Shown piece after piece: positions 7,089 to 22,440 of a DNA stretch of 64,000 nucleotides. This stretch comes from an uncultured Clostridia bacterium. Its GTDB lineage: Bacteria; Bacillota; Clostridia; Oscillospirales; Acutalibacteraceae. The notes beneath the pieces were generated by a model. The model was not told the origin of the DNA, did no database searches, and saw only the letters and a program-made list of their open reading frames with translations. The translations under genes and the position numbers were made by a program. Position 1 is the first letter of the stretch; every line of letters begins with the position of its first letter. The stretch is taken from contig CAMVEX010000003.1 of assembly GCA_947166625.1 (NCBI GenBank), positions 62,001 through 126,000 of the forward strand, given 5' to 3'.

Positions 7089-7110
7089 TATCGCTCACCG
7101 CTTTTCATAT

Positions 7111-8307: not shown

Positions 8308-8328
8308 GGTATCACCTGTTTCGTTTTA

Positions 8329-8949
8329 TCAAATATTAATTCTAGGAGAAAAAATCGGGTGATGAATTTCATAAAATTTAACATTATTATCATCATAAAA
8401 AGCCTTATACTCTTTCTTTGCGCTATAAGGAAGCCCGTCTATTTTAACAGCCGTTTGATTTAGACTTTTAATTATTTTATATATTTTTGAACAAACAAAT
8501 ACTATTTCAGGTTTAGACTGTTCTATTATTTTTGTAACTCTTTTATGTACTTCTTTCTCATCATTGATTAAATTTTTATATATTTTGCTTTCAGATGTTC
8601 CTCCTCCTAAAGGATTTATATTTGCATATGCGCATTTATCAAGTTCATTATCACTACAGCCAACGGCTTTCAACATCTCTTTAAACCTGTTTTGATATGT
8701 ACTGTCGGTTTTTGTTTTTCCATCTGTTCCAGCAATACAGTCTAAAAACCAGGCCTTATTATTCTCAGAGATAATATCAAGTTTTTTTCTGTTTCCGGCA
8801 TCTTCGCCTGCATCAGGCTCCTTCATTATAAACAGGATTCCATTATAATTGCTCTTTTCAGGCATATAAGTGATAAGATATCTATAATCATTTTTATCAA
8901 GATGGTAAATTGGATCTCGGTTTTTATCGTTCATAACAAGTATCCTCAT
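8329..8949 (-). CDS. Hypothetical protein, possible uracil-DNA-glycosylase fold
   Basis: A 206-residue protein not confidently recognised. The layout weakly resembles the uracil-DNA glycosylase superfamily: a hydrophobic strand ending in FIMKEPDAGED, a YANINPLGGG block, a strand PEIVFVCSKIY and a late IHHPIFSPR motif, which could match the catalytic and intercalation loops. The coding sequence is more A/T-rich than its neighbours, hinting at different ancestry. Its ATG overlaps the stop of the preceding phosphatase gene (ATGA); a second ATG at 8934 is also possible. Fold assignment is tentative. Confidence 0.5.
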   Translation of the reverse strand: MRILVMNDKNRDPIYHLDKNDYRYLITYMPEKSNYNGILFIMKEPDAGEDAGNRKKLDIISENNKAWFLDCIAGTDGKTKTDSTYQNRFKEMLKAVGCSDNELDKCAYANINPLGGGTSESKIYKNLINDEKEVHKRVTKIIEQSKPEIVFVCSKIYKIIKSLNQTAVKIDGLPYSAKKEYKAFYDDNNVKFYEIHHPIFSPRINI

Positions 8950-9644
8950 AATCTGAATTCCTTATTATCATCAAGCCGGAGCAAAACCGGCTCGTTGCCG
9001 TAGGCTGCGCCGCAGTCTATACAGGTCCAGGTTTTTGTGCATAGAATTCTGCCGTCATATTCTTCGCCGAAGCATTTTGTCGGGGTGTGTCCGAATACTG
9101 TGTGAATGTCTTTGAAATATTCATCGGTGATTTCGGGCCACGCCCAGAGAAGCTCATCGGCTGTGTAATCGGAAAGGGGACGGCTCTTGTCGAAATTATC
9201 AAAGCCCGCGTGAACGAGGATATAATCTCTGCCGCCGGCGGTGACGGTTTCATAGAGCGAGCATGCGCGCAGATAATCAAGAATCGCTTTTTGTTTATCC
9301 CCGGGCAGTGCGCGGAGCGATTCCAGAGTAACGCCGCCGCCGTTGAGCAGATAGTTGCTGAGAAGTTCGATTTTTTCGGCATCAAACGCGGCAACACTCT
9401 CATCTGTAATCTCATCAAATACGAACGCGCAGGAAAGGAGCATTGCTTCGTGATTGCCGAGAATCAGCCGGACATTCGGCCTCTCAAGCAGCCATAGCAG
9501 AACGCTCATTCCCCCGTCGCCGTTGCGGTCAATCACATCGCCGAGGATATATAAAGTGTCGTTATCGCCGAACCCCGCTTTATCGAGCAGGGCTTCAAGC
9601 TTTTTCACGGGATAGCCGTGAAGGTCTGAGATAGTGTAGGTCAT
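8946..9644 (-). CDS. PPP-type metallophosphatase (serine/threonine phosphatase-like)
   Basis: A 232-residue calcineurin-like phosphoesterase. The bimetal-site motifs are present in order: ISDLHGY (about residue 6), LGDVIDRNGDGG (about 34), ILGNHEAM (about 60), HAGFDNF and VFGHTPT. This arrangement is shared by PPP phosphatases and bis(5'-nucleosyl)tetraphosphatases, so the substrate may be a phosphoprotein or a dinucleotide. The gene starts 12 bp after the DnaA-like gene and overlaps the next gene by 4 bp, so it belongs to the WYL-led transcription unit. The ribosome site is weak, suggesting translational coupling. Confidence 0.85.
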   Translation of the reverse strand: MTYTISDLHGYPVKKLEALLDKAGFGDNDTLYILGDVIDRNGDGGMSVLLWLLERPNVRLILGNHEAMLLSCAFVFDEITDESVAAFDAEKIELLSNYLLNGGGVTLESLRALPGDKQKAILDYLRACSLYETVTAGGRDYILVHAGFDNFDKSRPLSDYTADELLWAWPEITDEYFKDIHTVFGHTPTKCFGEEYDGRILCTKTWTCIDCGAAYGNEPVLLRLDDNKEFRL

Positions 9645-9656
9645 AATGCTTTTTTA

Positions 9657-10715
9657 TTATTCGTCAACTATAATTGGAGCAAAGCCATCACTTGAAAGTC
9701 TGTATGCTTCATAGTTGAAATAATCTCCGAGCCTTTTACATTTGCTGTTTCCTAGAATGACAACAAATTCATCATTTATAAAATCGTTTTTTGGGAATAC
9801 TTTTAATGACTTGATTTGTTCAAATACTTTTTCAAGATAAACCATATCATTTCCCCGATGTTGTGCAGGCACATAACCGATAACTATGCGTAAAGGGCAA
9901 TTGATAGTCAAAAGCTTTGTGATCTCATAAGTCCAGTCCCTATCGTCGTTTTCGTGTTCTATTGCAACATCAAAATCCCACAAATTATTATTAAGTTTAT
10001 AGCCGCGATCAGAAGCAGCTATTTCATCGCACTCGATTTCTTTCCATCCGCTGATATCAATGCGATAAAACTCAGTTCCATATGAATAACCGTTTTTATT
10101 TAGTATTTCTTCTATCAGCTTCGTTATAAACGCGGTATATTTTCTGCTCTTTTGATACTTTTTGCACGCCTCGTCATGTTTCTCGGCGATTTCGGCTTTA
10201 AACTTACTGAAAAATTCTTCCCCTGACATAACAGTGTCTTTTCCAATCTTCACATTTACAAACTCTTTTTCAATTCTTGCCGTAATGTGTTCATCTGTAT
10301 TTTTAAACTCATTAACAGGTATGTCGGATGCCAAAACGGTTTTGAGCCCGTTAACCATCCTGTAATCAAGAATAGTCAGGAATTCTTCCATAGTTGACGA
10401 TCTTCCCTGAATATACTGTAAACAATCAAAAAGCAGACAGGGTATATTTTTGTATTTGTTTTTGAAATCAGTTGTTGAATTCCCTTTGCGAATAGTGTCA
10501 ATGAGTTCATTGGTAAAATCATTGCTGGTTATATAGGCGGCATTATCGCCGAAAACAGCTTGAGTAGCTTTGAGTAGATGCGTCTTTCCCGAGCAGGCCG
10601 ATCCAGTCAGAAATATCAGATTGGGTCCGGATTTCTCGCAGAATTTAAGCATAGTTTCATAGGCGTTTCGGTTGCCGGCATTTACTTTAAAACTTTCAAA
10701 AGTGTATTCTTTCAT
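9657..10715 (-). CDS. DnaA-like AAA+ ATPase fused to a PD-(D/E)XK-like domain
   Basis: Residues 5-170 match the DnaA AAA+ core: FESFKVNAGNRNAYE, Walker A GSACSGKTH (about 38-46), the DnaA-specific FTNELIDTIRK block, and a Walker B-region motif LLFDCLQYIQGR in place of the usual LLIDDIQF. The second acidic residue of Walker B is therefore Cys, which may affect hydrolysis. The DnaA domain IV DNA-binding helix-turn-helix is absent. Instead, residues 185-352 carry a region with FDVAIEHEN and YEITKL (about 247-265), the spacing of a PD-(D/E)XK nuclease core. The gene overlaps the WYL gene by 4 bp, so they are co-transcribed. Known DnaA proteins load helicase at origins; this one lacks the parts needed for origin binding. 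A conflict or regulatory role is inference. Confidence 0.75.
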   Translation of the reverse strand: MKEYTFESFKVNAGNRNAYETMLKFCEKSGPNLIFLTGSACSGKTHLLKATQAVFGDNAAYITSNDFTNELIDTIRKGNSTTDFKNKYKNIPCLLFDCLQYIQGRSSTMEEFLTILDYRMVNGLKTVLASDIPVNEFKNTDEHITARIEKEFVNVKIGKDTVMSGEEFFSKFKAEIAEKHDEACKKYQKSRKYTAFITKLIEEILNKNGYSYGTEFYRIDISGWKEIECDEIAASDRGYKLNNNLWDFDVAIEHENDDRDWTYEITKLLTINCPLRIVIGYVPAQHRGNDMVYLEKVFEQIKSLKVFPKNDFINDEFVVILGNSKCKRLGDYFNYEAYRLSSDGFAPIIVDE

Positions 10716-12364
10716 TTCTCCTCCCTCTTTTTCTTTTCTTCTCTCTCTTTTCTTCTCTGTTCCATTATTTCCTTATGTCTTTCCATCATCTTTTCTCTGA
10801 GGATGGCGTGATTCTTTCTTGCTTCCTCGGCATTTTTGTCGGAATATTGAAGCAGTGTGAGATAACCCTCTTCAAAGTTATTGATATCGAGCATAACCTC
10901 AACTCTGCCGTCCTCATCTGTACGAAGGATAATCGGAAGAGTATCATCGGGAATGTTTCGTCTCATTCTGTACATTCTGTTGTCTTCAATTTCGGCAAGC
11001 AGAGCGCCGAGTATCAGAGAAATGCAATTGAGATTTGAAATCATTCCGGTTCTTGAATTTCTGTAACATTTGTTGAGGCCGAGAATCAGACCGCTGTACT
11101 GACCCTCGATTTCCTCACCTTTGAGTGGCAGCAGCATAAGATGGGTTTTTCTGACAAGTCCGCTCAGACGCTTCACATCAACCTTCTCTGCCTTTGCGTC
11201 CTCGCAGATCTGTTTCCACTCTGCGATAAGCTTCTTTATATTCTCATCGGATTCAATGAGAGTATCTTTACCGTCATTGTATTTTCTCCATGCCTCGCGC
11301 AAAGATGTTCTTATATTATCACGCAGAGATTCCGGCTCAAGAATCTCCACATTATCTGAATACTGCATTGCCCAGAATTTCATATCAGCAGGATTGATTT
11401 TAACTGCGCATGTGACTGTTTTTCCGTCTTCAGAAATAAATCTGACTCTTTTGCCGAACCAGTCAACAATATCACTTATTATTCTTTCGTTATTTGCTAT
11501 TCTGAATACTATTCTTTCCGAAGTGCCGGGCTGCATATAGAGCTGACCCGCCATTGTTTCGGGTATATCTTTAAGACCTTTAACTTTACTTTTCGGTTTA
11601 ACATTGGTATCAAGTATTTCTATATCGGTAATCTTATCAATACGAACCCTCGCCGTATTCTCATATTCATCATAATTACAAATAAGGTAATATCTGCCGT
11701 TAGTAGCAATCATCTGATATGGGTTGACAACCTTGGGATCTATTTCGCCGTCAACAAGTCTCGGATGAAGCTTCATATCTCTGCCGTAATTATTATAAAT
11801 ATATGCAATTTGCTTACCCTGGTCGATTGCCTCATCAATTACACCGATATTGTAAAGAAGCTGGTCATTTGATACTTTATCAAAAGACATATCGCGCAAA
11901 TTACTCAGATGCTTAGTGAGCCGGTTTCTCGCATCTATATCTCCGAGATTGCTGATAAGCTCAAGCAGCTCTATGCATTCGGAATAAGGTATATTCTTTG
12001 AAAAGAGAACCGCATCCATCAACATACGGATCTGAGCCGTACTGAAACTGTGACAATAGCGGAAATCGGTTCTGTATTCAGTTTTAACCTTTTTCCCTTT
12101 TTCGGTTGTTATTCTGTCTTTTGTTTCATACTGGATTTTATCGGCATAATCTCTTGAATAGATGAGATCATCAAGGCCGCGGGCGATTGCCTTGCGGTCA
12201 AGAATGATTTCATAATCCTTATACAGTTTCTCGCCAATCTGAGCCTGTGTGAGGCAATGAGCGGGGATTCCGTTTTCGTCAACTGTATCGTCCGTGTATC
12301 TTTTGAGTATTTCAAGAATATACAGCGTTGTCATCTTTTTTCTGTCTGCTGAATATGATTCCAT
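10712..12364 (-). CDS. WYL-domain transcriptional regulator with long C-terminal extension
   Basis: A 550-residue regulator. An N-terminal winged helix (residues about 10-75: TLYILEILKRYTD, QIGEKLYKDYEI) is followed by a WYL domain (about 185-275, including AYIYNNYGRDMKLHPR and YYLICNYDEYENTARVRIDK) and a WCX-like part to about 370. WYL proteins bind nucleic-acid-like ligands and often control phage-defence genes. About 180 further residues follow (380-550), ending in a highly charged helix rich in Arg, Lys and Glu; this extension is unusual. A copy of the island's 24-bp element lies about 65 bp upstream at its own promoter, pointing to autoregulation. The ribosome site is AAGGAG. Confidence 0.85.
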   Translation of the reverse strand: MESYSADRKKMTTLYILEILKRYTDDTVDENGIPAHCLTQAQIGEKLYKDYEIILDRKAIARGLDDLIYSRDYADKIQYETKDRITTEKGKKVKTEYRTDFRYCHSFSTAQIRMLMDAVLFSKNIPYSECIELLELISNLGDIDARNRLTKHLSNLRDMSFDKVSNDQLLYNIGVIDEAIDQGKQIAYIYNNYGRDMKLHPRLVDGEIDPKVVNPYQMIATNGRYYLICNYDEYENTARVRIDKITDIEILDTNVKPKSKVKGLKDIPETMAGQLYMQPGTSERIVFRIANNERIISDIVDWFGKRVRFISEDGKTVTCAVKINPADMKFWAMQYSDNVEILEPESLRDNIRTSLREAWRKYNDGKDTLIESDENIKKLIAEWKQICEDAKAEKVDVKRLSGLVRKTHLMLLPLKGEEIEGQYSGLILGLNKCYRNSRTGMISNLNCISLILGALLAEIEDNRMYRMRRNIPDDTLPIILRTDEDGRVEVMLDINNFEEGYLTLLQYSDKNAEEARKNHAILREKMMERHKEIMEQRRKEREEKKKREEK

Positions 12365-12414
12365 AAAATCAGCTCCTTAAGTATCGTTTGATAAATTATA
12401 TCACTTACAGCCAT

Positions 12415-12452
12415 ATTATACAATAGAGGTATGCGACAATTATGCCCCATTA
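12415..12452 (-). promoter_or_regulatory. Promoter with 24-bp WYL-island element, copy A
   Basis: On the minus strand a TATAAT -10 (12415-12420) lies 8 bp downstream of a 24-bp element at 12429-12452 (plus-strand core ATGCGAC-N5-TGCCCCAT). The element overlaps the stop codon of the upstream gene (12440-12442) and sits where a -35 would be. It precedes the WYL gene. This is the most divergent of four copies. The regulator is inferred to be the WYL protein. Confidence 0.6.
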
Positions 12453-13453
12453 TTTTTGTCTATGTTGATGCCGGCGAGCTCAAGACCTTCGTGAGTATAG
12501 AACTCGGGAATATCGCTTTTCGCCCTCTCCTCAGAGAGAATCTGATGATAGGCGTGCATAAGCAGTTCATCGTTTATGAGCCCTTTTTCATAATTGGAGA
12601 GCGCTTTGATTATCCTCTGAGCGCCTTCGAATTCACCGTTATAGAATTCAAAATCCATGTAGTTACAGAAGGACTCTCTGTAAACGGTTCCGTCTCTCCA
12701 TTGGGTATATCCGCCAAAGCTCATATCGGTGGTATCGCCGTTTTTTCCCTCGAAAAACCATTTCTTTACTTTTTCACTCAGACATTCCGGAACGATGTCC
12801 AGCACCACAAATAAATCAGTATAATCTTCCGCTGTTCCTATGCCGCACTTGTAATACGGACAATATATCACATCGCCTCTTTTGAACGGCACGGGAAAAT
12901 CAAACCACATACCTTCAAAAGCTACAAGCATATCATATTCATCTTCATTACAGGGAAAAGCGCCGTAATCCCATCTTTCCGGGCGTATGAACTCAAACTC
13001 CCTGTTCACAATTATTTTCGAGGGGTATTTTGAGTAATCATCTACCGAGATCTTTTTGATAACAAAGCGTTCAATTTCTTCGCAATCTTCGGCCTTTATA
13101 TACTCTTTCAATGAATCAACCGAAGAAAACACAGGATCAAATCGCCATTCATAATCTATAGTATAGACACAATCGGTATTAGTATAAAACCAGTCTAAAA
13201 AGCGCCTGCTCAAAGCCATAAAACGATTAAGAAAGTCGTGCAGGCTGTCATAATGAGGGCAGTTCGGCCTTCTGATAATTTCCATGTCGGGCATAGTGTT
13301 TATGATTTCTTCCCAACATTTGCATTTTTCGTTAAATCCGAGCTTCATGTTATTATATACAATCCAGGCTGATTCAAGAGAATCCGGCTTATAATCAATC
13401 TTTTTCCAGTGTTCCGCGATGCTACTGGAGTTAAGTAATTCGTAAATATTCAT
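12440..13453 (-). CDS. Hypothetical protein, paralogue of the 14.6-15.6 kb protein
   Basis: A 337-residue cytosolic protein with no recognised domain. It is rich in aromatic and acidic residues, with a central block PFKRGDVIYCPYYKC followed by DYTDLFVVLDIV that parallels PFRVGDIVRIDCRPF and VNALILY in the protein at 14613-15617; similar length and layout suggest distant paralogues. An internal CKCW and CPH may be metal-related, but this is weak. The ribosome site CAGGAG precedes ATG. It begins after a 241-bp gap that lacks the 24-bp element, and its 3' end carries element copy A for the next gene. Confidence 0.6.
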   Translation of the reverse strand: MNIYELLNSSSIAEHWKKIDYKPDSLESAWIVYNNMKLGFNEKCKCWEEIINTMPDMEIIRRPNCPHYDSLHDFLNRFMALSRRFLDWFYTNTDCVYTIDYEWRFDPVFSSVDSLKEYIKAEDCEEIERFVIKKISVDDYSKYPSKIIVNREFEFIRPERWDYGAFPCNEDEYDMLVAFEGMWFDFPVPFKRGDVIYCPYYKCGIGTAEDYTDLFVVLDIVPECLSEKVKKWFFEGKNGDTTDMSFGGYTQWRDGTVYRESFCNYMDFEFYNGEFEGAQRIIKALSNYEKGLINDELLMHAYHQILSEERAKSDIPEFYTHEGLELAGINIDKNNGA

Positions 13454-13694
13454 TTCGGCTCCTGATTAATTAATGATTCCCGGCTATAACCCTTTACTTC
13501 CACCGGGCAGGCAGATTAAACGAAATAATCCGCCCAAGTTTTCGTCAGCGCGCTGTTTTATTGAATATTCCTTCTGACATTGAACCTTTATAAATAACGG
13601 ATAACAAAAAGGAATAACGGAAAACTCAAACTCTGAACTTCAATAATGTCTTTTTATTCGATTTAAGAAGCGCGCAGACAGGGATTATGTTTTA
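13454..13694. other. Intergenic gap inside the island
   Basis: This 241-bp A/T-rich gap between two minus-strand genes contains no copy of the 24-bp element and no convincing promoter or terminator. A 10-bp perfect palindrome (CAGCGCGCTG, about 13548-13557) is the only notable structure. It probably separates transcription units or holds a weak promoter. Confidence 0.4.
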
Positions 13695-14204
13695 TTAAAC
13701 ATCAATTTCAAACTCAGCTGTGTTATTGACGGCATCAAGAGCAAGCTGAAGCTTTGCCAGCGTGTCAGTGGCTGTCTGATATTCGCGCTCCGCAGCCGCA
13801 ATATCGTAATTCGCATACCTGTAATCTATAAGGCCGACACTTGTCCTGCCGTAAGAATCAACTCTTTCTTTGGGCAGAGCCGACTTAAGACTGTTGAGGC
13901 GCGATACATCCGCAGTCAGCTGTGGCATATATACAAGCACCTCGTCAACGGTCATATTGAAGCCCGGCACAACAGTGTTGATGTTGAAGACATTCAAGGC
14001 GTGCTTTATTTTTCTTATCTTTTCTTCAAGTTCTTTCTTTTTTGCCTCGGTTTCTTCAAAACTGTAAGCGGGCCTCACGATTTCTGGATCTTCGCCGACG
14101 GCGGCAACAAATGTGCTCACCTTGTTTTCAAGCCTGAGCAGGTCGCTGAGCTCATTTGTAAGGTTTCTGAGTATTTTGGCAGCCTGCGCCGATGTTACTT
14201 TCAT
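13695..14204 (-). CDS. Coiled-coil protein, possibly DIP1984/septicolysin-like
   Basis: A 169-residue protein made largely of predicted helices: two coiled-coil stretches (about 5-70, with EETEAKKKELEEKIRKIKHAL, and 130-165) around a middle segment (NTVVPGFNMTVDEVLVYMPQL). This helix-loop-helix pattern resembles DIP1984/septicolysin-type proteins, whose function is unknown. Ribosome site GGAGGTATTTATT. It is the last gene before the 241-bp gap in the unit that starts at 17559. Confidence 0.6.
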   Translation of the reverse strand: MKVTSAQAAKILRNLTNELSDLLRLENKVSTFVAAVGEDPEIVRPAYSFEETEAKKKELEEKIRKIKHALNVFNINTVVPGFNMTVDEVLVYMPQLTADVSRLNSLKSALPKERVDSYGRTSVGLIDYRYANYDIAAAEREYQTATDTLAKLQLALDAVNNTAEFEIDV

Positions 14205-14237
14205 AATAAATACCTCCGTTAATATTTGTGGTTTTCT

Positions 14238-14609
14238 TTATGCTGCTGTAATAAGCCGATTTGCTTCAATTTTATTTAAACCAAATACAGCCGGTTTTTC
14301 TAATTCGTCATATTCCCTGTATCCGTTTTCGGTTAAGATAATTCCGTATTTTTCTCTCAAATCCTCAATTGCAAGTTCAATGGCTTTTTCCACATGATAA
14401 ATACATTTTAAACTCTCAGGCTGAACATATCTTATATCATCGTCTGATAAATAAGCTCCGTCGGTTAAAAAGAATCTGTATACCGCACCTTTCTCTTTTA
14501 ATTCCCTCAGCCGGTCTTTCAATATGTCAAGTCTCATTTCAAGCTGACGCTCCGGCGGAGGATAACTGTAATCTTCGTGATCAATATCCAACATTGAAAA
14601 ATATCCCAT
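14238..14609 (-). CDS. Hypothetical protein
   Basis: A 123-residue protein of unknown function. It is charged, with a helical heptad-like stretch (QLEMRLDILKDRLRELKEKGA) near residues 22-42 and a second helix (KCIYHVEKAIELAIEDLREKYG). No metal or nucleotide motif is visible. The start has GGAGAAATGAATT. It follows the 334-residue protein by 3 bp and is clearly in the same operon. Confidence 0.6.
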   Translation of the reverse strand: MGYFSMLDIDHEDYSYPPPERQLEMRLDILKDRLRELKEKGAVYRFFLTDGAYLSDDDIRYVQPESLKCIYHVEKAIELAIEDLREKYGIILTENGYREYDELEKPAVFGLNKIEANRLITAA

Positions 14610-14612
14610 AAT

Positions 14613-15617
14613 TCATTTCTCCTCAAATAATCCCTTAACTTTTTCAAGCAATTCACCGGGTGAAGTAAAGTCCCTGTTTTCACTCAGGTAACTCCACACC
14701 TTATCGCCTTTTTCATTGTCGCCGTAAATCAACGGCGATATTTCTTTATATATGCGGTCATATTCGCTGAGTTCTCCGTCATAAGTTTCAATGCGGTAAA
14801 GAGCGGATATCATATTATCTCCCCTGAGATGCATCCACATATCCGTATGCTTGACCGCGCCTGTGCGGTAATATCCCTTGTCATCTCTGTAAAGCGCGAG
14901 CAGGGAGCAGCAATCCCAATCCGGACCGGTGTAAAGGATAAGCGCATTAACGGGCGGCGCAAACGGGCGGCAGTCGATTCTGACAATATCGCCGACCCTG
15001 AACGGAGTTGCCATATTCAGATCTATACATGAAGAGGAATATTTATGCTCCGGAAGGCGGAAATACGGCCCTTCATCTCCATGCTCCCTGCAGGCGGCAA
15101 ACCAGCAGATGCCGATGCCGTAAATATAATAGTAAATATATGTGTTTATGAACCTGCCGTCTTCATCCGGCACCCATTTTTTAATATTATACCATGATGT
15201 GCACTCTTCGTCCCGCTCCTCAAATCTTTCATTCCAGTCGATATATCCGAGAACTTTATCATAATTCAGACAGGGCTGATTACTGAATCCACCATACGCG
15301 ACATCTTTTATATCCTCGTCATACCACGGATCGTCAACGGTGAAAATCTCACCGGGAGCGCAGACGAGATTATCAATCGCCGCCTTGAAATCATCGGCAG
15401 ATTCCGATATTTCTTTTTCGCCGGATTCATTTGCCAGGGAACAAAGAAACTCATATTTTTCGGTGATTGTGATTTCCGGTGAGCCGATTATTATTTCGGC
15501 AAGGCCGAAATAATTGAGCATATTCTCCGGAAGGCAGAGAAATTCCCGCATCTGCCGTGAGGGAAAGGTTCTGAAGATTATTCTTTTGTATTGGGATTCC
15601 GGTAACTTTTTGTTCAT
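14613..15617 (-). CDS. Hypothetical protein, paralogue of the 12.4-13.5 kb protein
   Basis: A 334-residue cytosolic protein of unknown function. Similarities to the protein at 12440-13453 include overall length, the block PFRVGDIVRIDCRP, followed by a strand with an aromatic-rich turn (LILYTGPDWDCCSLL), and a C-terminal helix with a charged end. It has many Asp, Glu, Trp and Tyr residues. No catalytic motif was recognised. Ribosome site AAAGGTGG. It lies in the middle of the compact operon running from 17559 to 13695. Confidence 0.6.
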   Translation of the reverse strand: MNKKLPESQYKRIIFRTFPSRQMREFLCLPENMLNYFGLAEIIIGSPEITITEKYEFLCSLANESGEKEISESADDFKAAIDNLVCAPGEIFTVDDPWYDEDIKDVAYGGFSNQPCLNYDKVLGYIDWNERFEERDEECTSWYNIKKWVPDEDGRFINTYIYYYIYGIGICWFAACREHGDEGPYFRLPEHKYSSSCIDLNMATPFRVGDIVRIDCRPFAPPVNALILYTGPDWDCCSLLALYRDDKGYYRTGAVKHTDMWMHLRGDNMISALYRIETYDGELSEYDRIYKEISPLIYGDNEKGDKVWSYLSENRDFTSPGELLEKVKGLFEEK

Positions 15618-15644
15618 TAAATATCCACCTTTGCAGTTTCATAT

Positions 15645-16256
15645 TCAAGTGTTTTCATTAATTTCTGTTTGTTGCAGGGCTTTCAATTTCTTATTTAGCT
15701 TTTTTATATTTTTGTCACCGATGTATTTTCCGATAAGGCGACTGATTTCGTTATCAATCAGATCTGAATCAATCGCAAACATTGAAACTGTTTCATTTGC
15801 TCCTGAAATTATTGACAAATTGACCGTATTTGCCAAAGGGAAGCCGGTTGTAACATCATTCGCAAATGAACATAACCCAATCTTAAAACCGCCATAATCA
15901 TTTTCAAAGTTGCAGGGTGTATCAAATAAAATGCTTACAGACTGTTTTGTGATTTTTGTTAATGCTGAAAAAACCTCAACAGTATCATATAAAGAAACGA
16001 TTTTAATATCGGGATTTAACACCTTGCCGGTGATAATATCTTCATATTTTTTTAACTCGTCTGCTGTTGTGAAATCATAGCGGATATACTTTTCACCTGC
16101 AATTAAATCATTAAAGAAATCATATAACTCATCTGCAATTTCATCACTTACTTTGCCAAAATAATGCGGGTCTTTTGTATTTATTTCTCTACGAAAAACA
16201 AAATCACGATATTTATCAATTACATATTCTTTAACGGATTCAAGTATTCTGATCAT
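15645..16256 (-). CDS. Hypothetical protein
   Basis: A 203-residue protein with no recognised family. It has a mixed helix/strand composition, an N-terminal charged helix, a central hydrophobic strand pair (QSVSILFDTP, YGGFKIGLCSF) and a Lys-rich C terminus. The sequence is more A/T-rich than the chromosome around the island. The ATG at 16256 is chosen because AAAGGAATAAAA lies directly before it; a frame extending to 16325 overlaps the neighbouring gene and is unlikely. Confidence 0.55.
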   Translation of the reverse strand: MIRILESVKEYVIDKYRDFVFRREINTKDPHYFGKVSDEIADELYDFFNDLIAGEKYIRYDFTTADELKKYEDIITGKVLNPDIKIVSLYDTVEVFSALTKITKQSVSILFDTPCNFENDYGGFKIGLCSFANDVTTGFPLANTVNLSIISGANETVSMFAIDSDLIDNEISRLIGKYIGDKNIKKLNKKLKALQQTEINENT

Positions 16257-16305
16257 TTTTATTCCTTTCATTGATAATCGATTCATAATTCTCTTTTTTA
16301 TTAAT

Positions 16306-16677
16306 TCAATCCCACAGATCATCAAAATTATCTCTCATCCATTCAAAAACTTCGTTTTTGATTTCGTCATAATCATCGGGGCGCCCGTCTTCATCGGTAT
16401 CGAGTTTTCTGACAAGAGAGGCAACGCGTCTGAGCTCTTTTTCCCAGTTTTCTGCGCTGCCGTAACGCTCGGGGTAGCTGTGGAGATTGGCGGCAAAATA
16501 ATCAAGGCCGCCGGCAAAGAGCTTTTTGAGATAAGAATTGAAATCCCAAATATCACAGTCTGCAAAGCCGCGCACGACTCTCTGCTTTGCGTATTTGAGA
16601 TTGTCAAAAAAATACACAATATTCTTTGATAAACGCCCGAAGCCGTCTTTGTTGGAAAAAACATTCAGTTTATTCAT
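16306..16677 (-). CDS. Small protein of a family also seen in phages
   Basis: A 123-residue protein with the block RGFADCDIWDFNSYLKKLFA near residues 33-52, then HSYPERYGSAENWEKELRRVA. From memory, proteins with an RG(F/Y)SDxDxWxxDxYL pattern followed by GYP are common in phage and prophage genomes, often in structural regions, with no proven function. Start at 16677 follows GGAGGTGCTCATT; the GTG at 16686 falls in the ribosome site itself and is rejected. A phage-type gene in this island could be a decoy or a relic. Confidence 0.6.
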   Translation of the reverse strand: MNKLNVFSNKDGFGRLSKNIVYFFDNLKYAKQRVVRGFADCDIWDFNSYLKKLFAGGLDYFAANLHSYPERYGSAENWEKELRRVASLVRKLDTDEDGRPDDYDEIKNEVFEWMRDNFDDLWD

Positions 16678-16694
16678 AATGAGCACCTCCGGTT

Positions 16695-17168
16695 TTAATC
16701 GGTTTGTTTATTGAACAGTGTCACACTTTCAGATTGTGGCTTTACTTCCTTCGGATTTTTTACCATACCGATTGGATAAATAACTGTAATCATCAGCCCG
16801 AAATCAAGGCCTGAAATATTATATCCTTTGCCGGGTATTTCAAGCTCTTTATTTACACTGCCGTCGGCATTGACAATCCCGATAAATCCATTGTCCTTGA
16901 ATATAAAATGCTCAAGGTTCAATGTATTTGTCCATTCGATTGCCTTATCTTTGGGCAGGCCGTAAAGGATGAGTCCCTTTTTTACTTCGGGCATGGGACT
17001 GCCATTGCCTGTACAGTATGAAATCTCGGCTCTGTTAAAGCCTAAATGTCCGATTCCGGTTGAATATTTCCGGATGAGATCGTACAGTTCCTGTCCGTCA
17101 AAAGGAATTATCACCAAAGAGCCGTCATCCATAAAACATCTGAAAAATTTGTTTTCGGCATTATTCAT
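16695..17168 (-). CDS. Hypothetical protein
   Basis: A 157-residue beta-rich protein of unknown function. It contains repeated short strands (SLVIIPFDGQELYDLI, KKGLILYGLPKDKA, EHFIFKDNGFIGIVN). No active-site motif is visible. The ATG at 17168 has AAGGAGATACAGAG in front; an upstream frame start at 17234 would overlap the preceding gene by 53 bp and lacks a site. Confidence 0.55.
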   Translation of the reverse strand: MNNAENKFFRCFMDDGSLVIIPFDGQELYDLIRKYSTGIGHLGFNRAEISYCTGNGSPMPEVKKGLILYGLPKDKAIEWTNTLNLEHFIFKDNGFIGIVNADGSVNKELEIPGKGYNISGLDFGLMITVIYPIGMVKNPKEVKPQSESVTLFNKQTD

Positions 17169-17181
17169 TCTCTGTATCTCC

Positions 17182-17559
17182 TTAATCCTTATCTCTGCAG
17201 CAATACTGAAGCCTGTGTTGATTCTCTTTTTCAATTATACCGCTGTACATCCATTTGATGCCGTCTGTTTCCTCGATAACATTGCAGGCGTGAAGCCCCT
17301 TGGTTTTCATATATTCCTCAAAAGAGCCGGAGCCGTGAAAGTCAAATCCTGCTTTGTCTGCGGAAACATCCCAAAGGGACAGCCCGCTGTCTGCCCAGAG
17401 GCAGAGCTCAATCACATTGCCGTCATCGAGTGTGCAGTTCATGAGCGAAAGAATAAGGGTACCGTCTTCGTCTCTGAAAGCTTCTCTTTTTGTCAGGATT
17501 TCGGTGACATTACCGAAAAGGTCATCAAATAAACCGTTTACTCCGATCGTCTCTCTCAT
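17182..17559 (-). CDS. Hypothetical protein, first gene of the element-B unit
   Basis: A 125-residue protein with no recognised domain. It has a beta-rich middle (LILSLMNCTLDDGNVIELCLW) and several Cys residues near the C terminus. Ribosome site AAGGAGGAGAGATT is excellent. It lies directly downstream of element copy B and appears to be the first gene of a compact unit reaching at least to 13695. Confidence 0.55.
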   Translation of the reverse strand: MRETIGVNGLFDDLFGNVTEILTKREAFRDEDGTLILSLMNCTLDDGNVIELCLWADSGLSLWDVSADKAGFDFHGSGSFEEYMKTKGLHACNVIEETDGIKWMYSGIIEKENQHRLQYCCRDKD

Positions 17560-17581
17560 AATCTCTCCTCCTTACAGCTTC

Positions 17582-17618
17582 ATAATAGCACAGACTATGG
17601 TAAAATTTTGCCCCATAG
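17582..17618 (-). promoter_or_regulatory. Promoter with 24-bp WYL-island element, copy B
   Basis: A TATTAT -10 on the minus strand (17582-17587) lies 7 bp downstream of the element at 17595-17618. This copy has the best symmetry: perfect 6-bp arms CTATGG and CCATAG with a central AAAATTTT. No canonical -35 is present, since the element occupies that position. It precedes the gene at 17559. Confidence 0.7.
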
Positions 17619-17629
17619 TCCGATTGCGC

Positions 17630-19240
17630 CTATTCGTCAAGATAACACTTATAATGCTCGCTGTAATCATATCTGATTACGGGCTCTATTTGAAGATTGA
17701 ACGCTTCAATTATTTCGGTAACATGCTTTTCATCAATATTCGGGTTCATATAAATAACAGGTCTGTCCCCGCGGATTATAACCACTCTCCCTCGGGGATA
17801 GTAATCAAACGGTTTGTTGCCGCATCCCTTCGGCCTTATATATTCCCATATTTTCTGATGGTTATATGCCGTGCCGGATTTTGAAACCGCCTCGCGGTAT
17901 TTATTCTCATCATAGGGAAAAGCATACAGTTTATCATCAATAATCCAGAACACTCCGTTATGTTGATTTCTGTCTTTATTATCCTGCTGATGAATATAAA
18001 CCCTTTTCTCAAGTTTTTGCATTTCATCAATATTGAAAGCCGTTCCTTTGCTTTGCCCGTCCCAAATCATAAAGGTTTCATCGGCATCTTTAGCCATTTC
18101 AATATCTTTCAGCTCATAATAATCATATCCCTCTTCACCGTGAGACGGCACATTAACTACAGGCCAATCACCGATATTGTTTCTCGCTTTTCCTTCGGTG
18201 GCGTAAACGGTCACATTTTTATATCCTTTGAGAAAAAGATGCGCCTGAACAAGCTTATCAACTCCCAGACAGTCACCGATAAGGATTTCGGCATTTTCCA
18301 AAATGAGCTCATCCAGCTTCTGCCGCACTGTTTCATCGAGTTTAGTTATGTTCTTTGAGCCGCCGATGAATACTTTTTTAGAGTTGCTCCTGCCATCGTT
18401 ATTTTGTTCCTTAAACCACGCCTCGCTTTTGTATATCTTTTTTCTGAGAGTAAACTCTTCCTTCTCATCCGGGCGAAACTGCTTTATCACTTTGAATTTG
18501 GCAACCGCATAGCTGTTGTCTTTATCGTTCATCATCGATTCAATGTTATTTCTGATGCAGAAGGCGGTGTATTTATCCGAGGATTCAATCAATGCGGCTC
18601 TGCTGCCCGTTTTCAAATGCATATCCAGGTAAGAAACCGTAACCGGAACAGAGCCTGCGATCCTCTTTAATTCACCGGCAGCTTCCCGCGCTTTTATTTT
18701 ATTGCCCACATAAGGATTCCCTCCGTTGCTCAGATATGAAAGAAGATAATCGAATCCGTCGATGAAAATACAGCCGTCTTCAATGCCCTTCATATCCTCA
18801 ATAATCATGTCGGAATGCTTCAGCGAAACAGGGTCATTCACATATACCGGCAGCGATGAAATGATATATTCGGCATACGGGCGGATTTCTTTATACTTAA
18901 CGGTGCTGTTAGTATCAAACATCATAAGTGCGAGGCGTTCGGCTGTTATGACGGCAGGCTCGTGTGAGAAGAAATATATTTTTCTCTCCGGATAATTCAG
19001 GATATATTGCAGCATAAGCGCGGTTTTGCCGCGGCACGCTGAGGCGGCAATCGTAAAAAGCTCGCCGGGCTTTGAGGCGAAGATATTCTCCGCCTCCTCC
19101 GGTAACACGGGAATATTGATTTGCGAAAGAATCTCCGCTGTCGGTTTCTCTTTGTCTTCGCCGATGTATTTACCTATCGGGTGAAAGAATCCGGTTTCGC
19201 CGCCGGTCGGAACGACGCCTGTCAGCAATGAAAGATCCAT
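17630..19240 (-). CDS. DnaB/RecA-like ATPase fused to a SLOG domain and a C-terminal domain
   Basis: A 536-residue three-part protein. Residues 40-270 form a RecA/DnaB-like P-loop domain (Walker A ASACRGKTA about 68; Walker B CIFIDGFDYL; a DnaB-like motif LIESSDKYTAF). Residues 288-425 form a SLOG-type Rossmann domain related to YspA/DprA (VFIGGSKNITKLD, LIGDCLGVDKLVQ, FMIWDGQSKGTAFN). Residues 430-536 hold a third domain with DYYPRGRVVI and a closing EHYKCYLDE, which I have seen fused to SLOG proteins but cannot name. SLOG domains sense or process nucleotide-derived ligands and occur in bacterial conflict systems. The start (AAGGAGGAGACTT) lies inside the 3' end of the FtsH-like gene, overlapping it by 71 bp. 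Confidence 0.75.
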   Translation of the reverse strand: MDLSLLTGVVPTGGETGFFHPIGKYIGEDKEKPTAEILSQINIPVLPEEAENIFASKPGELFTIAASACRGKTALMLQYILNYPERKIYFFSHEPAVITAERLALMMFDTNSTVKYKEIRPYAEYIISSLPVYVNDPVSLKHSDMIIEDMKGIEDGCIFIDGFDYLLSYLSNGGNPYVGNKIKAREAAGELKRIAGSVPVTVSYLDMHLKTGSRAALIESSDKYTAFCIRNNIESMMNDKDNSYAVAKFKVIKQFRPDEKEEFTLRKKIYKSEAWFKEQNNDGRSNSKKVFIGGSKNITKLDETVRQKLDELILENAEILIGDCLGVDKLVQAHLFLKGYKNVTVYATEGKARNNIGDWPVVNVPSHGEEGYDYYELKDIEMAKDADETFMIWDGQSKGTAFNIDEMQKLEKRVYIHQQDNKDRNQHNGVFWIIDDKLYAFPYDENKYREAVSKSGTAYNHQKIWEYIRPKGCGNKPFDYYPRGRVVIIRGDRPVIYMNPNIDEKHVTEIIEAFNLQIEPVIRYDYSEHYKCYLDE

Positions 19241-20561
19241 AAGTCTCCTCCTTCATATACCTACGCTCAATATTGCACTCACTTCTGATCGCCTGAATCT
19301 CGGGAGCGGTGAGAAGCTTTTTCTCGGCGAGGGCACGGGCGATCTTTTCAAAGAACTCGCTGTTGAGCGAAAGGATTTCCTTTGCCTTGCGATAGTATTC
19401 TTCGATCTTTGCGGCTGTTGCCTTCTCGATACTGCTGTTCAAATTTTCGGAGTTTCTGTATGGTGATCCATGCAAATGGAAGCCGCATATACAGTCATCC
19501 TCAATCATATCTCTCACCATATCAAATGCCTGATCAAAATCGCGTGAAGCGCCGTTGCCCGGTACGCCGACTCTCTGCTCTATTGCGGCTGCGCCGGCGA
19601 GAGACCCTACTGCCCTGAATTTTGAGTAATCGAGAGGCAGGATCGAATTGATATTGCTGTAAGAGGTGAGCCCCGATTTGCCTGAGCTTACGCCCGTGAC
19701 AGACACAAGAGTGACCGAACCGGGATAGATGACCTCGGAAACTGTTGCATGGCCCGCCTCATGCCATACCGTATCGTCGATCATTTTCTTCCCTTCGCTT
19801 TTACTGTTGCAGTAATCGTCATCATCGTCATCATCATCGTTGATATCGCGGCCGTAAGTGCTTCTCAGATAAGCTCGCATAAAATGCTCCATTGTGATCT
19901 TATCGGCGCGGTCAAAGCTGGCGTAAACTCCCGCTTCGTTTATGAGCGTTTCAAGCTTCGCGCAGGAATCTCCCTCCATAAGCCGGGCAATATACTGCTT
20001 GTCGATATTTTCGGCAAGAGATTTGCCGTCAAGATAATGTGAAATAATCTCAAGCGCATCGGCGCCTCTCGGAGCGTTGATTTCAAGCCTTCTGTCAAAG
20101 CGACCCGCTCTTGTGAGAGAGCGCGGCAGGCGTTGGATATCATTGACTGTGGCAAGCACAAATACATCCTTGCCCTTGATTTCATCAATACAGCTCTGCA
20201 CGGTAACATATTCCTCGGCGTCTCTGTGCCTTTCATCCTCATTGGCAAATTTATCCATATCGTCAAGGAACACAACGGACGGTGCGTTTTCTTTTGCCTG
20301 CTCAAAGGTTTTGGTGATTTCGTTTATAAATTCACCGTTGGGCTTATTCTTCCTGCATACGAATGCCTTCCTGCCGCTCGCCTTGATAAGGCAATCGGAC
20401 ATAAGAGTTTTGCCTACGCCGGGCTCGCCGTAAAGCAGCAGACCGCCTGGCGCGTTCACTCCGAGCTTCTTGTAAACATCGCTGTTTCTCAGGCAGTCGG
20501 CTATCTGCTCAAGTTCTTTTTTCTCTGCCGAATAACCTATGATTCTGTCAAATTCTTTCAT
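19170..20561 (-). CDS. Soluble FtsH-like AAA+ zinc protease (M41)
   Basis: A 463-residue AAA/M41 protein without the N-terminal membrane helices of FtsH. Walker A GEPGVGKT is near residue 45, Walker B FLDDMDKF near 100, arginine-finger region LTRAGRFDRRLE near 155. The protease half has the zinc motif WHEAGHA (about 265) and the third-ligand block GASRDFDQA (about 338), both intact, so it is probably active. The two halves are joined by a linker with eight consecutive Asp residues (about 240). Element copy C lies about 75 bp upstream. Its 3' end overlaps the SLOG gene. The absence of a membrane anchor suggests it degrades cytosolic proteins, perhaps island or phage proteins; that is inference. 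Confidence 0.85.
   Translation of the reverse strand: MKEFDRIIGYSAEKKELEQIADCLRNSDVYKKLGVNAPGGLLLYGEPGVGKTLMSDCLIKASGRKAFVCRKNKPNGEFINEITKTFEQAKENAPSVVFLDDMDKFANEDERHRDAEEYVTVQSCIDEIKGKDVFVLATVNDIQRLPRSLTRAGRFDRRLEINAPRGADALEIISHYLDGKSLAENIDKQYIARLMEGDSCAKLETLINEAGVYASFDRADKITMEHFMRAYLRSTYGRDINDDDDDDDDYCNSKSEGKKMIDDTVWHEAGHATVSEVIYPGSVTLVSVTGVSSGKSGLTSYSNINSILPLDYSKFRAVGSLAGAAAIEQRVGVPGNGASRDFDQAFDMVRDMIEDDCICGFHLHGSPYRNSENLNSSIEKATAAKIEEYYRKAKEILSLNSEFFEKIARALAEKKLLTAPEIQAIRSECNIERRYMKEETYGSFIADRRRSDRRRNRILSPDR
19813..19846 (+). repeat. Trinucleotide repeat coding for an Asp run
   Basis: An imperfect run of GTC/ATC triplets encodes eight consecutive Asp residues in the linker of the FtsH-like protease. 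Such a repeat could vary in length by slippage, altering the linker without a frameshift. Confidence 0.6.
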
Positions 20562-20618
20562 TTCAAGATTTCCTTTCTTTCATAATAAACGTGGTTTGTG
20601 TCTTCCTGTTGCAAGATC

Positions 20619-20655
20619 ATATTAACTCACGCCATGGGTAATTTTTGCCCCGCCG
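20619..20655 (-). promoter_or_regulatory. Promoter with 24-bp WYL-island element, copy C
   Basis: A TAATAT -10 on the minus strand (20619-20624) lies 7 bp downstream of the element at 20632-20655 (plus-strand core ATGGGTA-N5-TGCCCC). The element overlaps the last codons of the DnaB-like gene, so the FtsH-like gene seems to have its own promoter inside that gene's end. Confidence 0.6.
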
Positions 20656-21389
20656 TCGTTTAAGATTATCACCGTGTCCGAGTTATTCACAACAGCTTTT
20701 GATACAGAAAACACCGGATTCCCTTCGGTATCTCTTGATAACTGAGCAAAACAAACAACCGGTATATCATATTCAACAGCCAGCGCTTTCAGCCCGGCTG
20801 TAATCTGTGCGACTTCTTCCGAGCGCTTCGGGACTTTGGCGTCAGGACTGATCAGACCAAGGTAATCAATAATAACGCAATCAACTCCGCCGAGAGTCTG
20901 GATCCTCTGTTTCATTAAAGAAACAGTCATATAATTGGTGTCATCTATAAACAGATTGTGTTCAAGCATTTCATCATCCGGTTTAAACCGTTTAAGCAAA
21001 AATTCACGTGATTCACCTAAAGCAAACAGCACTGACTTTTTGCCGAGATGTGATATGATATCGGCAAGGCAGCAGGAAAATTCCGTTTTGCCCTCGCCCG
21101 GCCTGCCGCCGACAACAGTAAGAATGCCCGGTTTCATTGCCGACACAATTTCTTTAATAATGTCAAGGTCCGTTCTGCCGGTTACCGGTGTTTTCTCATT
21201 TAATAATTCTTTCATTTCTGCTTCCGCCTCCTTCAGTTTTTCTTTCACAATCAATTCGCGCTTCCTTGTGCTATACATCCTGTCGGATAAGCATATGTAA
21301 CAACCTCCGTTGTTCCTGCACCGACTGTCCGGCGAAATAACCGGATCCCGTTTTTCCTTGCCGTGCGCTATAGCTTTATTCAGCGACAT
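20622..21389 (-). CDS. DnaB-helicase-core ATPase without the DnaB N-terminal domain
   Basis: A 255-residue protein whose residues 75-255 match the RecA-like core of DnaB helicases: Walker A VGGRPGEGKTEF (about 93-104), Walker B VIIDYLGLI (about 177), and the helicase motif VVCFAQLSRDTEG. The DnaB N-terminal collar domain is missing. In its place is a charged segment with a Cys cluster (CRNNGGCYIC) near residues 24-33, possibly metal-binding, and a helix rich in Lys and Glu. It could be a remodelling or decoy ATPase. ATG at 21389 is preferred over GTG at 21398, with GAGGTG upstream. Confidence 0.75.
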   Translation of the reverse strand: MSLNKAIAHGKEKRDPVISPDSRCRNNGGCYICLSDRMYSTRKRELIVKEKLKEAEAEMKELLNEKTPVTGRTDLDIIKEIVSAMKPGILTVVGGRPGEGKTEFSCCLADIISHLGKKSVLFALGESREFLLKRFKPDDEMLEHNLFIDDTNYMTVSLMKQRIQTLGGVDCVIIDYLGLISPDAKVPKRSEEVAQITAGLKALAVEYDIPVVCFAQLSRDTEGNPVFSVSKAVVNNSDTVIILNDGGAKITHGVS

Positions 21390-21407
21390 CGTCCTCACCT
21401 CGACTGT

Positions 21408-21444
21408 ATCTTACCATCAACGATGGGTATTTTTTGCCCCATAG
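21408..21444 (-). promoter_or_regulatory. Promoter with 24-bp WYL-island element, copy D
   Basis: A TAAGAT -10 on the minus strand (21408-21413) lies 7 bp downstream of the element at 21421-21444 (plus-strand core ATGGGTA-N5-TGCCCCATAG). It lies between the minus-strand DnaB-like gene and the divergent plus-strand gene at 21498, so it could influence both, though its orientation matches the minus-strand gene. Confidence 0.65.
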
Positions 21445-21497
21445 CAAATGTTATCATTCGATCAGCCGGTGAGGCAAAAAATAAGGGAGTGTGAATT

Positions 21498-21962
21498 ATG
21501 AAAGAATCTTATGTTTCTTCTCGGAGAGAAATGCTGTATGACAAGTGGGAAAGCATTGCAGAGAACCTTTACTATGAGGCAATAGATATTGAAGAATTCA
21601 AAACCTTGGTGTATGATACCTATGAGTATTTCAGGCAGAGCAGAGAGTACAATTCCGTTTTGCGTGAGGATCTCCCCATTTTCCGCTTTATTTGCAAATA
21701 TCAGTTCTGCACAGATGTTCCTCCGGGCAACACAGAGGCAGAATTCGCGGTCTGTCAATCCTTTGCAGAAAGCTTATGCTGGGTGATCGAGAACAGCTTT
21801 GAGAGAGGGTATTACAAAATCTCAATGCCGCTTGAACTCTCTTATCAAAACAGCCGCAATGAGGCAGATATGAGCTCGTTTGAGTCATTCAGCAAGGCGT
21901 TTGACAATCTGATTGAAATGTATAAAGAAGAATTTGATGAATATGATGAGGAGGATAATTAA
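21498..21962 (+). CDS. Hypothetical acidic protein
   Basis: A 154-residue, mostly helical acidic protein of unknown family, rich in Tyr, Phe and Glu, ending in an acidic tail (YDEEDN). No catalytic motif is visible. Ribosome site AAGGGAGTGTGAATT. It is divergent from the DnaB-like gene, lies downstream of element D and precedes the NADAR gene by one base, so these two are an operon. Confidence 0.6.
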   Translation: MKESYVSSRREMLYDKWESIAENLYYEAIDIEEFKTLVYDTYEYFRQSREYNSVLREDLPIFRFICKYQFCTDVPPGNTEAEFAVCQSFAESLCWVIENSFERGYYKISMPLELSYQNSRNEADMSSFESFSKAFDNLIEMYKEEFDEYDEEDN

Positions 21963-21963
21963 A

Positions 21964-22440
21964 ATGACAGTTATCAATGATTTCAGAGGCGAATACGGTT
22001 TCCTTTCAAACTTCCACTCAAGCCCCTTTGAGTATAAAGGGCTGATTTACCCTAATTCAGAGGCGGCCTTCCAGGCGCAGAAATGCGCCACAGAAGAGGC
22101 AAAAATAAAGTACACAACCACAAAGAACCCCGTTATTATCAAGAGTATGGGCAAGAAAGAGCCGGGCCTGCCCGCAAACTGGGATGAGATTTCGTATGAC
22201 ATAATGCTTGATATTCTCAGGGCAAAATTCAAAGACCCCGCGCTAAGAGAAAAACTCCTCGCCACAGGCGACGCCTACCTTGAGGAGGGTAATCACTGGC
22301 ATGACAACCGCTGGGGCCGCTGCACTTGTGAAAGATGCAAAAACAAAGAGGCAAAAAATCAACTCGGCAAAATCCTGATGACGATCAGGGATGAGATACG
22401 TTCAGAAATGAAGGAAGACAATAAAATACCGAAAAAATAA
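21964..22440 (+). CDS. NADAR/YbiA-like N-glycosidase domain protein
   Basis: A 158-residue NADAR protein. Family motifs are FRGEYGFLSNFHSSPFEYKG, YPNSEAAFQAQK, a WDEISYDIMLDILRAKF block and NHWHDNRWGRC near the C terminus. NADAR enzymes act on ADP-ribose or pyrimidine N-glycosidic bonds; some hydrolyse riboflavin precursors and some reverse guanine ADP-ribosylation of DNA. Start at 21964 after GAGGAGGATAATTAAA. Its presence at the island's edge, opposite KptA and with a SLOG protein, points to NAD/ADP-ribose chemistry. Confidence 0.9.
   Translation: MTVINDFRGEYGFLSNFHSSPFEYKGLIYPNSEAAFQAQKCATEEAKIKYTTTKNPVIIKSMGKKEPGLPANWDEISYDIMLDILRAKFKDPALREKLLATGDAYLEEGNHWHDNRWGRCTCERCKNKEAKNQLGKILMTIRDEIRSEMKEDNKIPKK

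Follow-up and report, generated by a model that had tools for sequence, protein, structure and literature searches.

The stretch of DNA analysed here, which we call the window, comprises 64,000 nucleotides of contig CAMVEX010000003.1 from an uncultured Clostridia bacterium. It carries an island of genes (6546-22440) that includes the gene of a WYL protein, an FtsH-like gene, genes of DnaA- and DnaB-like ATPases and a gene of a NADAR-domain protein, and at the promoters of this island stand four similar, partly palindromic elements of 24 base pairs (bp), named A to D, each upstream of a -10 hexamer (Table 1). An original prediction had proposed that the WYL protein acts on all four of these elements, and had left it open whether it does so as a repressor or as an activator.

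Elements and promoters in the window

The four 24-mers lie at the coordinates and on the common strand that had been predicted, their minus-strand -10 hexamers follow at 8, 7, 7 and 7 bp, and symmetry is indeed highest in element B (16 of 24 positions). The plus-strand core ATGGGTA, claimed for all four, is present in C and D only. We find that the element is better described as a 20-bp unit, RTG-N14-CAY, followed after 9 bp by TANNNT. The arms of this unit read ATGNNNC and GNNNCAT, and its centre of 6 bp is A/T-rich. Measured from the 20-mer, the spacer to the -10 is 9 bp at four of the five promoters of the window and 10 bp at the WYL promoter. The fifth promoter had been overlooked and belongs to the other side of element D, which is two-sided: on the minus strand TAAGAT leads into the DnaB-like gene, and on the plus strand TATCAT leads into the gene of a 154-residue protein and the NADAR gene. 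The predicted lack of a canonical -35 is also borne out, as the hexamers at a 17-bp spacer agree with TTGACA at 1-2 of 6 positions, no hexamer at spacers of 15-19 bp agrees at more than two, and the position of the -35 is covered by the 20-mer. Element A overlaps the stop codon of the preceding open reading frame (ORF), and element C lies within the 3' end of the DnaB-like ORF.

Confinement of the element to the island

As the prediction would have it, the element is not scattered over the genome. The genome of 2.49 Mb has four places that match the 20-base consensus with up to three mismatches; all four belong to the island and share a strand. The reversed pattern, used as a control, is found at two places in the same genome. 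With the matrix the four sites reach 27-34 bits, and no other place in the window exceeds 11.9. When each site is left out of the matrix in turn, B, C and D still score 19.6-27.2, and the score of A is only 12.2 (rank 6 in the window), so A alone would not stand out. A broader consensus with up to two mismatches has five places in the window's genome, four of them in the island; in the genome of the relative RUG13820 both of its two places are in the island, and in that of the relative Tb.RUG.222 four of its six places (those four with 0 or 1 mismatch) are on island contigs.

The loose 20-base pattern is common background, with a match in 257 of 300 genomes of the family, and the point is thus the confinement and clustering of the matches and not the rarity of any single one. 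The exact composite pattern, whose core is AAAA, matches 30 times in 26 genomes with a WYL homologue (18 of 26 positive; 4 for the reversed control) and five times in 26 genomes that lack one (4 of 26 positive; 2 for the control). Counted from coordinates, 22 of the 30 are on island or WYL contigs. Since some of these loci had served to shape the pattern, the counts show confinement and do not amount to an independent test. About half of the 20 matches to one composite pattern share the string ATGGGNCAAAAA..ACCAT.GA..CTAC.AT, which we take to be a Dxr coding motif, and these were not counted as elements. By our own reading the same string occurs in four of the eight off-island matches of the WYL-positive genomes and in one of the five matches of the WYL-negative ones.

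Conservation in close relatives

For the full-length WYL protein the genome collection holds two close relatives, in RUG13820 (97% identity) and in Tb.RUG.222 (65%). Element A is identical in RUG13820 (L005), where the DNA is 98% identical throughout, hence this identity has little weight. It gains support from its presence ahead of the 65%-identical WYL gene of Tb.RUG.222 (L006), where one base of the 20-mer is changed. Element B of RUG13820 is CTATGGGTCGAAATTGTCCCATAG, with the outer arms kept and the inner letters changed; it forms a better palindrome and still stands 7 bp before TATTAT. In Tb.RUG.222 elements precede the WYL gene, the FtsH-like gene, a 391-residue gene with an FtsK/SpoIIIE match, the homologue of the gene at 17182, a 666-residue AAA gene and others. 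The spacer from the 20-mer in the island-type genomes is 9 bp, and at their three WYL promoters it is 10 bp. At the place equivalent to D, TATAAT stands 9 bp away in both relatives towards the homologue of the 154-residue protein (L084, L086), and the other side has CATAAT, not TANNNT. Homologues of this protein in L084, L086 and L107 are all preceded by an element with a -10 at 9 bp.

Spacing at the WYL loci of other genera

WYL homologues at an E-value of at most 1e-20 are present in 110 of 398 genomes of the family, many of them as weak matches, and 20 stretches (351 kb) around the stronger homologues of other genera were taken for tests. Searching related genomes with the element matrix, a check that the prediction had suggested, shows enrichment at WYL loci: a matrix built from 11 sites of the three island-type genomes finds 26 places in the 20 loci at a threshold of 13, as against 4 in mirrored DNA. 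At a threshold of 12, 12 of 34 places have TANNNT at offset 9, and no other offset has it in more than 4.

The same preference is apparent when no matrix is used. The pattern RTG-N14-CAY-Nk-TANNNT has 65 matches at k = 9 in the 20 loci, a count that includes sister-species loci (e.g. L092 and L094) and counts two-sided elements twice. The other 18 spacers between k = 3 and k = 21 give 7-21 matches each, with a mean of 13.7, so about 14 of the 65 would be expected by chance. In 18 loci of housekeeping FtsH, which served as a control, there are 3 matches at k = 9 and 0-5 at the other spacers. At the free positions of the -10 hexamer the 65 matches bring out TATAAT (T in 43, A in 33 and A in 34 of 65), and positions 9-12 of the element are A or T in 59-64 of 65. 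The centre has AAAA or TTTT in 51 of the 65, compared with 68 of 160 matches at ten other spacers; these 160 partly represent the same elements in another register. TATTG stands directly before the -10 in seven of the 65 matches, all seven of them ahead of WYL genes (L092, L094, L095, L096, L098, L099 and L100), and the WYL promoter of the window (12415-12425) likewise has it.

Two-sided elements recur in these loci. On the other flank of the 65 matches TANNNT stands at 9 bp in 20, which make up ten elements, and in at most six at any other offset; the ten include a sister-species pair (L092 10014, L094 9468) and two near-copies on one contig (L097). In the genome G263 the divergent WYL and FtsH-like genes have an element between them that is flanked at 9 bp by TAAAAT and by TATTTG.

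The promoters of orthologues can be looked at gene by gene. Island-type FtsH-like proteins (at least 40% identity) have 13 matches in 12 of the 398 genomes, and the next matches among those listed are at most 35% identical and were taken as housekeeping FtsH. For 12 of the 13, a WYL homologue lies no more than about 17 kb away on the same contig, and in G209 the two are on different contigs. Exact geometry at 9 bp is found in 9 of 13 FtsH-like upstream regions, which come from 12 loci and Tb.RUG.222 (a second copy in G343, which has no locus, was left out). Near-misses occur in G000 (GCG for RTG), G057 (AAA for RTG) and G263 (TATTTG), and the upstream region in G209 has no element match. The match is at 9 bp in 11 of 33 WYL upstream regions and at 10 bp in five, and these five include the three island-type genomes. 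Spacers of 4, 5, 11, 12 and 14 bp in these WYL and FtsH-like upstream regions were considered as a second class and rejected as other registers of element promoters; this holds for all but one (L065 at 5) of the printed matches at those spacers, most of them through a TATTGTATAAT stretch.

Plasmids and phage records

As a forward test we used three plasmid loci from outside the family, those of Butyrivibrio proteoclasticus pCY186, E. eligens (L158) and R. albus (L160). Plasmid pCY186 (NC_014390.1) has eight elements of the form RTGTRC...GYACAT, each exactly 9 bp from a -10 and all on one strand within 20 kb (123,966-143,709). Their arm letters differ from those of the window's elements. All five distinct elements of pCY186 that read ATGTGC-N8-GYACAT have TANNNT at 9 bp, and in the 25-kb locus the loose geometry gives eight matches at 9, seven of which belong to the eight elements, and 0-6 at other spacers. 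Among the genes of the 20-kb segment are two WYL genes, dnaX, a DnaA/Hda gene and mcrC with an AAA gene next to it, and PolC lies just past the last element; this is possibly a plasmid replication and defence segment under WYL control. No relative was found when viral contigs were scanned with the WYL alignment, and phage records gave 15 matches in unannotated faecal records, 14 of them at less than 60% identity.

The WYL protein and the genes of the island

The WYL protein of the window is the one WYL homologue of its genome at an E-value of at most 1e-20. When a profile of 21 WYL homologues is compared with the PDB, five sequences come first (8e-7 to 3.4e-6) with one common matched stretch, followed by PafC and PafB. 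Among the five are 7TZV, 9PFQ and 8TP8, which are named DriD in papers, and neither BrxR nor CapW was recognised among the entries listed up to an E-value of 0.1. A WYL homologue of another genus (L090 9515-11053; 512 residues in total) is also extended at its C-terminus relative to homologues of about 350 residues. On contig 11 of G015, from the same genus as the window, the contig starts inside a WYL homologue (L087 13-675), which is present from residue 324 on at 52% identity, and its promoter is outside the contig.

The island brings together KptA/Tpt1, a dGTPase-like HD protein, a metallophosphatase, DnaA- and DnaB-like ATPases, an FtsH-like protein and a NADAR protein, and several of these families recur near WYL homologues in other genera. 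Among 23 groups compared (single linkage), the recurring families are WYL (22 groups), FtsH-like (7), metallophosphatase, 14613-like and NADAR (6 each), 12440-like (5) and DnaB-like (4). The region may be a conflict or RNA-repair island that has gone undescribed; its gene set is not described in the excerpts of the NADAR and KptA literature used here (PMC9503650, PMC11833690). The 125-residue protein that opens the element-B unit has no Pfam match. RUG13820 has two tandem copies (45.7% and 98.5% identity; L005 7920-9925) of the protein encoded at 12440-13453, of which the window has one.

Table 1. Elements, -10 hexamers and island genes, in coordinates of the window
Feature	Position	Strand	Remarks
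Element A	12429-12452	-	24-mer; 20-mer ATGGGGCATAATTGTCGCAT at 12431-12450; precedes the WYL gene
Element B	17595-17618	-	24-mer; 20-mer ATGGGGCAAAATTTTACCAT at 17597-17616
Element C	20632-20655	-	24-mer; 20-mer GCGGGGCAAAAATTACCCAT at 20634-20653
Element D	21421-21444	no single strand	20-mer at 21423-21442; between divergent genes, two-sided
-10 TATAAT, WYL promoter	12415-12420	-	8 bp from 24-mer A; 10 bp from 20-mer
-10 TATTAT, unit of 17182-17559	17582-17587	-	7 bp from 24-mer B; 9 bp from 20-mer
-10 TAATAT, FtsH-like operon	20619-20624	-	7 bp from 24-mer C; 9 bp from 20-mer
-10 TAAGAT, DnaB-like gene	21408-21413	-	7 bp from 24-mer D; 9 bp from 20-mer
-10 TATCAT, fifth promoter	21452-21457	+	9 bp from D, other side; upstream of 21498-21962
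KptA/Tpt1 RNA 2'-phosphotransferase	6546-7088	-	Pfam E 5.9e-49
HD phosphohydrolase, dGTPase-like	7111-8307	-	
Metallophosphatase	8946-9644	-	family recurs near WYL homologues in other genera
DnaA-ATPase-like protein	9657-10715	-	behind the WYL gene; Pfam Bac_DnaA
WYL protein, 550 residues	10712-12364	-	N-terminal region, WYL 174-250, WCX 285-358 (Pfam WYL, WCX), C-terminal extension of about 190 residues
125-residue protein, first gene of element-B unit	17182-17559	-	homologues behind an element in L005, L083, L084
Second gene of FtsH-like operon	17630-19240	-	weak DnaB_C match in N-terminal part
FtsH-like AAA and M41 protein	19170-20561	-	Pfam AAA, Peptidase_M41; distinct from housekeeping FtsH
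DnaB-like ATPase, 258 residues as called	20622-21398	-	Pfam DnaB_C
154-residue protein, first gene on D plus side	21498-21962	+	homologues in L084, L086, L107
NADAR-domain protein, second gene on D plus side	21913-22440	+	Pfam NADAR E 1.8e-22

Discussion

Our aim in what follows is to weigh what kind of regulator could read these elements. The sequence comparisons give good support to a local WYL regulon of which the promoter of the WYL gene itself is a member, because the elements are confined to the island, are enriched at WYL homologues of other genera and on one plasmid, and one of them stands before the WYL gene. To this extent the predicted action of the WYL protein on all four elements is partly supported. 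We think it probable that the four elements are the sites of the island's own WYL protein and that this protein is a transcription activator of the DriD type. A WYL homodimer would sit on the 20-bp RTG-N14-CAY unit, spanning the position of the -35, with its two DNA-binding domains on the outer arms. The dimer would thereby hold the housekeeping RNA polymerase, with its housekeeping sigma factor, at promoters that have a -10 and no usable -35, and the A/T-rich centre would be located where region 4 of sigma would be at a 17-bp spacer. Since the site is nearly symmetric it could serve a promoter on either side, as at D, and since the WYL gene has an element promoter of its own the circuit would show positive feedback. 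The WYL domain may take a nucleic acid or nucleotide as its ligand, that of DriD being ssDNA.

The closest parallel to such an activator is DriD of Caulobacter crescentus. DriD is a WYL activator with a pseudopalindrome of about 20 bp, ATACGAC-N7-GTCGTAT, that overlaps the -35 (preprint PMC12340889). Its site keeps one distance to a weak -10 in all five target promoters, the -35 matches at 1-2 of 6 positions, and region 4 of sigma is flanked by the two DNA-binding domains in the middle of the site (PMC12340889). The window's promoters likewise have a pseudopalindrome of about 20 bp over the -35 position, a constant distance to the -10, a -35 with 1-2 of 6 matches and a WYL-WCX protein related to DriD, and the mode of action would accordingly be like the known one. 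In the printed sequences of didA and of the driD region, the 21-mer is followed by GGCTCGGCC and TGCGCGGAC (PMC12340889). If G-14 is the second of two adjacent Gs there, -12 falls 8 bp past the site, and the distance from the left end of the site to -12 is 29 bp, as are the 20 + 9 bp of the window; if it is the first, the distance is 28. The systems also differ, as the window has ATGNNNC and GNNNCAT arms, a 6-bp A/T-rich centre and 9 bp to the -10 compared with 8 for DriD, a single element, as at D, can carry -10s on both sides, and its WYL protein has a C-terminal extension of about 190 residues. The clostridial targets are local islands, whereas those of DriD are scattered DNA-damage genes.

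Two other WYL activators are less close. With PafBC of mycobacteria the housekeeping polymerase uses promoters without relying on a -35 (PMC11804915), a likeness that comes with a weaker profile match than that of DriD. PafBC is a heterodimer in which PafB alone touches promoter DNA at one -26 motif (PMC11804915), whereas the window's element has two arms and its genome one WYL homologue. SiwR of Mycobacterium smegmatis is a homodimeric activator with a 19-bp imperfect palindrome upstream of the -10 (PMC10693628), in which it resembles the predicted clostridial protein. Its site differs in spanning the stretch between the -35 and the -10, and the target described for it is the msmeg_1357-56 operon (PMC10693628).

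A number of observations weigh against activation of the DriD type. The profile match to DriD spans the WYL/WCX half only (profile positions 212-347). DriD has a winged helix-turn-helix and a three-helix bundle in its N-terminal part, and in a Pfam-type scan no helix-turn-helix (HTH) model matched the window's WYL protein, HTH_12 being weakly matched in 3 of 21 homologues. The figure of 29 bp for DriD is our own reading of the printed sequences, in which G-14 could be either G in didA and the driD region; the bapE site was missed by the consensus scan, and an alignment of bapE by eye favours the second G. Of the 33 WYL upstream regions, 17 have no strict match in 160 bp, and three of the 16 that do come from island-type genomes. 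TGN stands before the -10 in 19 of 65 sites, and some such promoters could work without an activator. Finally, the loose geometry has no peak at 9 over the whole of pCY186 (13 matches; 14 at 12 and 15 at 17), and the plasmid loci of E. eligens and R. albus have no strict match at spacer 9.

The WYL protein could instead be a repressor of the BrxR or CapW kind, covering the -35 region of extended -10 promoters until a ligand releases it, and we regard this as unlikely. BrxR (PMC9122601) and CapW (PMC9122588) are both WYL repressors of defence loci, dimeric and with palindromic sites, and the TGN triplets just mentioned, together with the perfect TATAAT of the window's WYL promoter, would suit such a mechanism. 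The sites of these repressors lie just downstream of the -10 (BrxR) or over it (CapW), whereas in the window the 20-mer is upstream of the -10 and separated from it by 9-10 bp. Exact spacing is not required of a repressor, yet the 9-bp spacer has its 65 matches against a mean of 13.7 and is kept on both sides of ten elements, and the PDB profile list is one of DriD and PafBC sequences. The original prediction had cited BrxR and CapW while leaving the direction of control open; geometry argues against repressors of their type and fits activation as by DriD.

It is considerably more doubtful that an alternative sigma factor, or a different and unlinked activator, reads the element and has the WYL gene merely as one of its targets. 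Fixed spacing and the missing -35 would fit, as would the WYL upstream regions with no strict match. The -35 of a sigma factor is not symmetric and would not serve both sides, whereas the site here is near-symmetric and ten elements, and D in the window, carry -10s on both sides, for which reason the alternative sigma allowed for in the prediction fits poorly. The elements also cluster at WYL homologues in many genera and around the two WYL genes of pCY186, and none of the island proteins scanned turned out to be a sigma factor. That the repeats are not regulatory at all, and reflect chance, coding constraint or replication iterons, we consider hardly credible: C lies inside an ORF, A over a stop codon, and coding look-alikes such as the presumed Dxr string exist, yet all four genome matches are in the island, B is kept in RUG13820 with its inner letters changed, the distance to the -10 is nearly fixed with a gene start soon after in most cases, and confinement, the 11-site matrix test, the spacer-9 peak and pCY186 already largely refute it.

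A broader picture can also be offered, and we do so tentatively. There may be a clostridial family of WYL activators for which the symmetric 20-bp element is a two-way promoter, with a -10 exactly 9 bp from either end and one dimer site for divergent operons. The inner arm letters (ATG-NNN-C) differ between islands and plasmids and may be private address codes by which adjacent WYL circuits stay separate. The islands (FtsH-like protease, NADAR, KptA and DnaA/DnaB-like ATPases, and in pCY186 also mcrC and replication genes) might be turned on by a nucleic-acid signal of phage attack or damage. As far as our searches of open-licence PMC papers show, the clostridial promoter grammar, the recurrent islands and the use of one element in both directions are new, and these searches brought up no paper on two-sided WYL promoters or on a WYL regulon of Ruminococcus or Butyrivibrio.

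To our knowledge, WYL proteins form a large family in which few members have a tested direction of control. With a searchable grammar of RTG-N14-CAY, 9 bp and TANNNT, the regulons of these Clostridia could be recognised from sequence, and the grammar predicts activation where BrxR and CapW repress. The two-sided elements offer a direct test of how one symmetric activator site serves two polymerases. The grammar also links the nameless proteins (FtsH-like, 12440-like and 14613-like) that recur in these islands.

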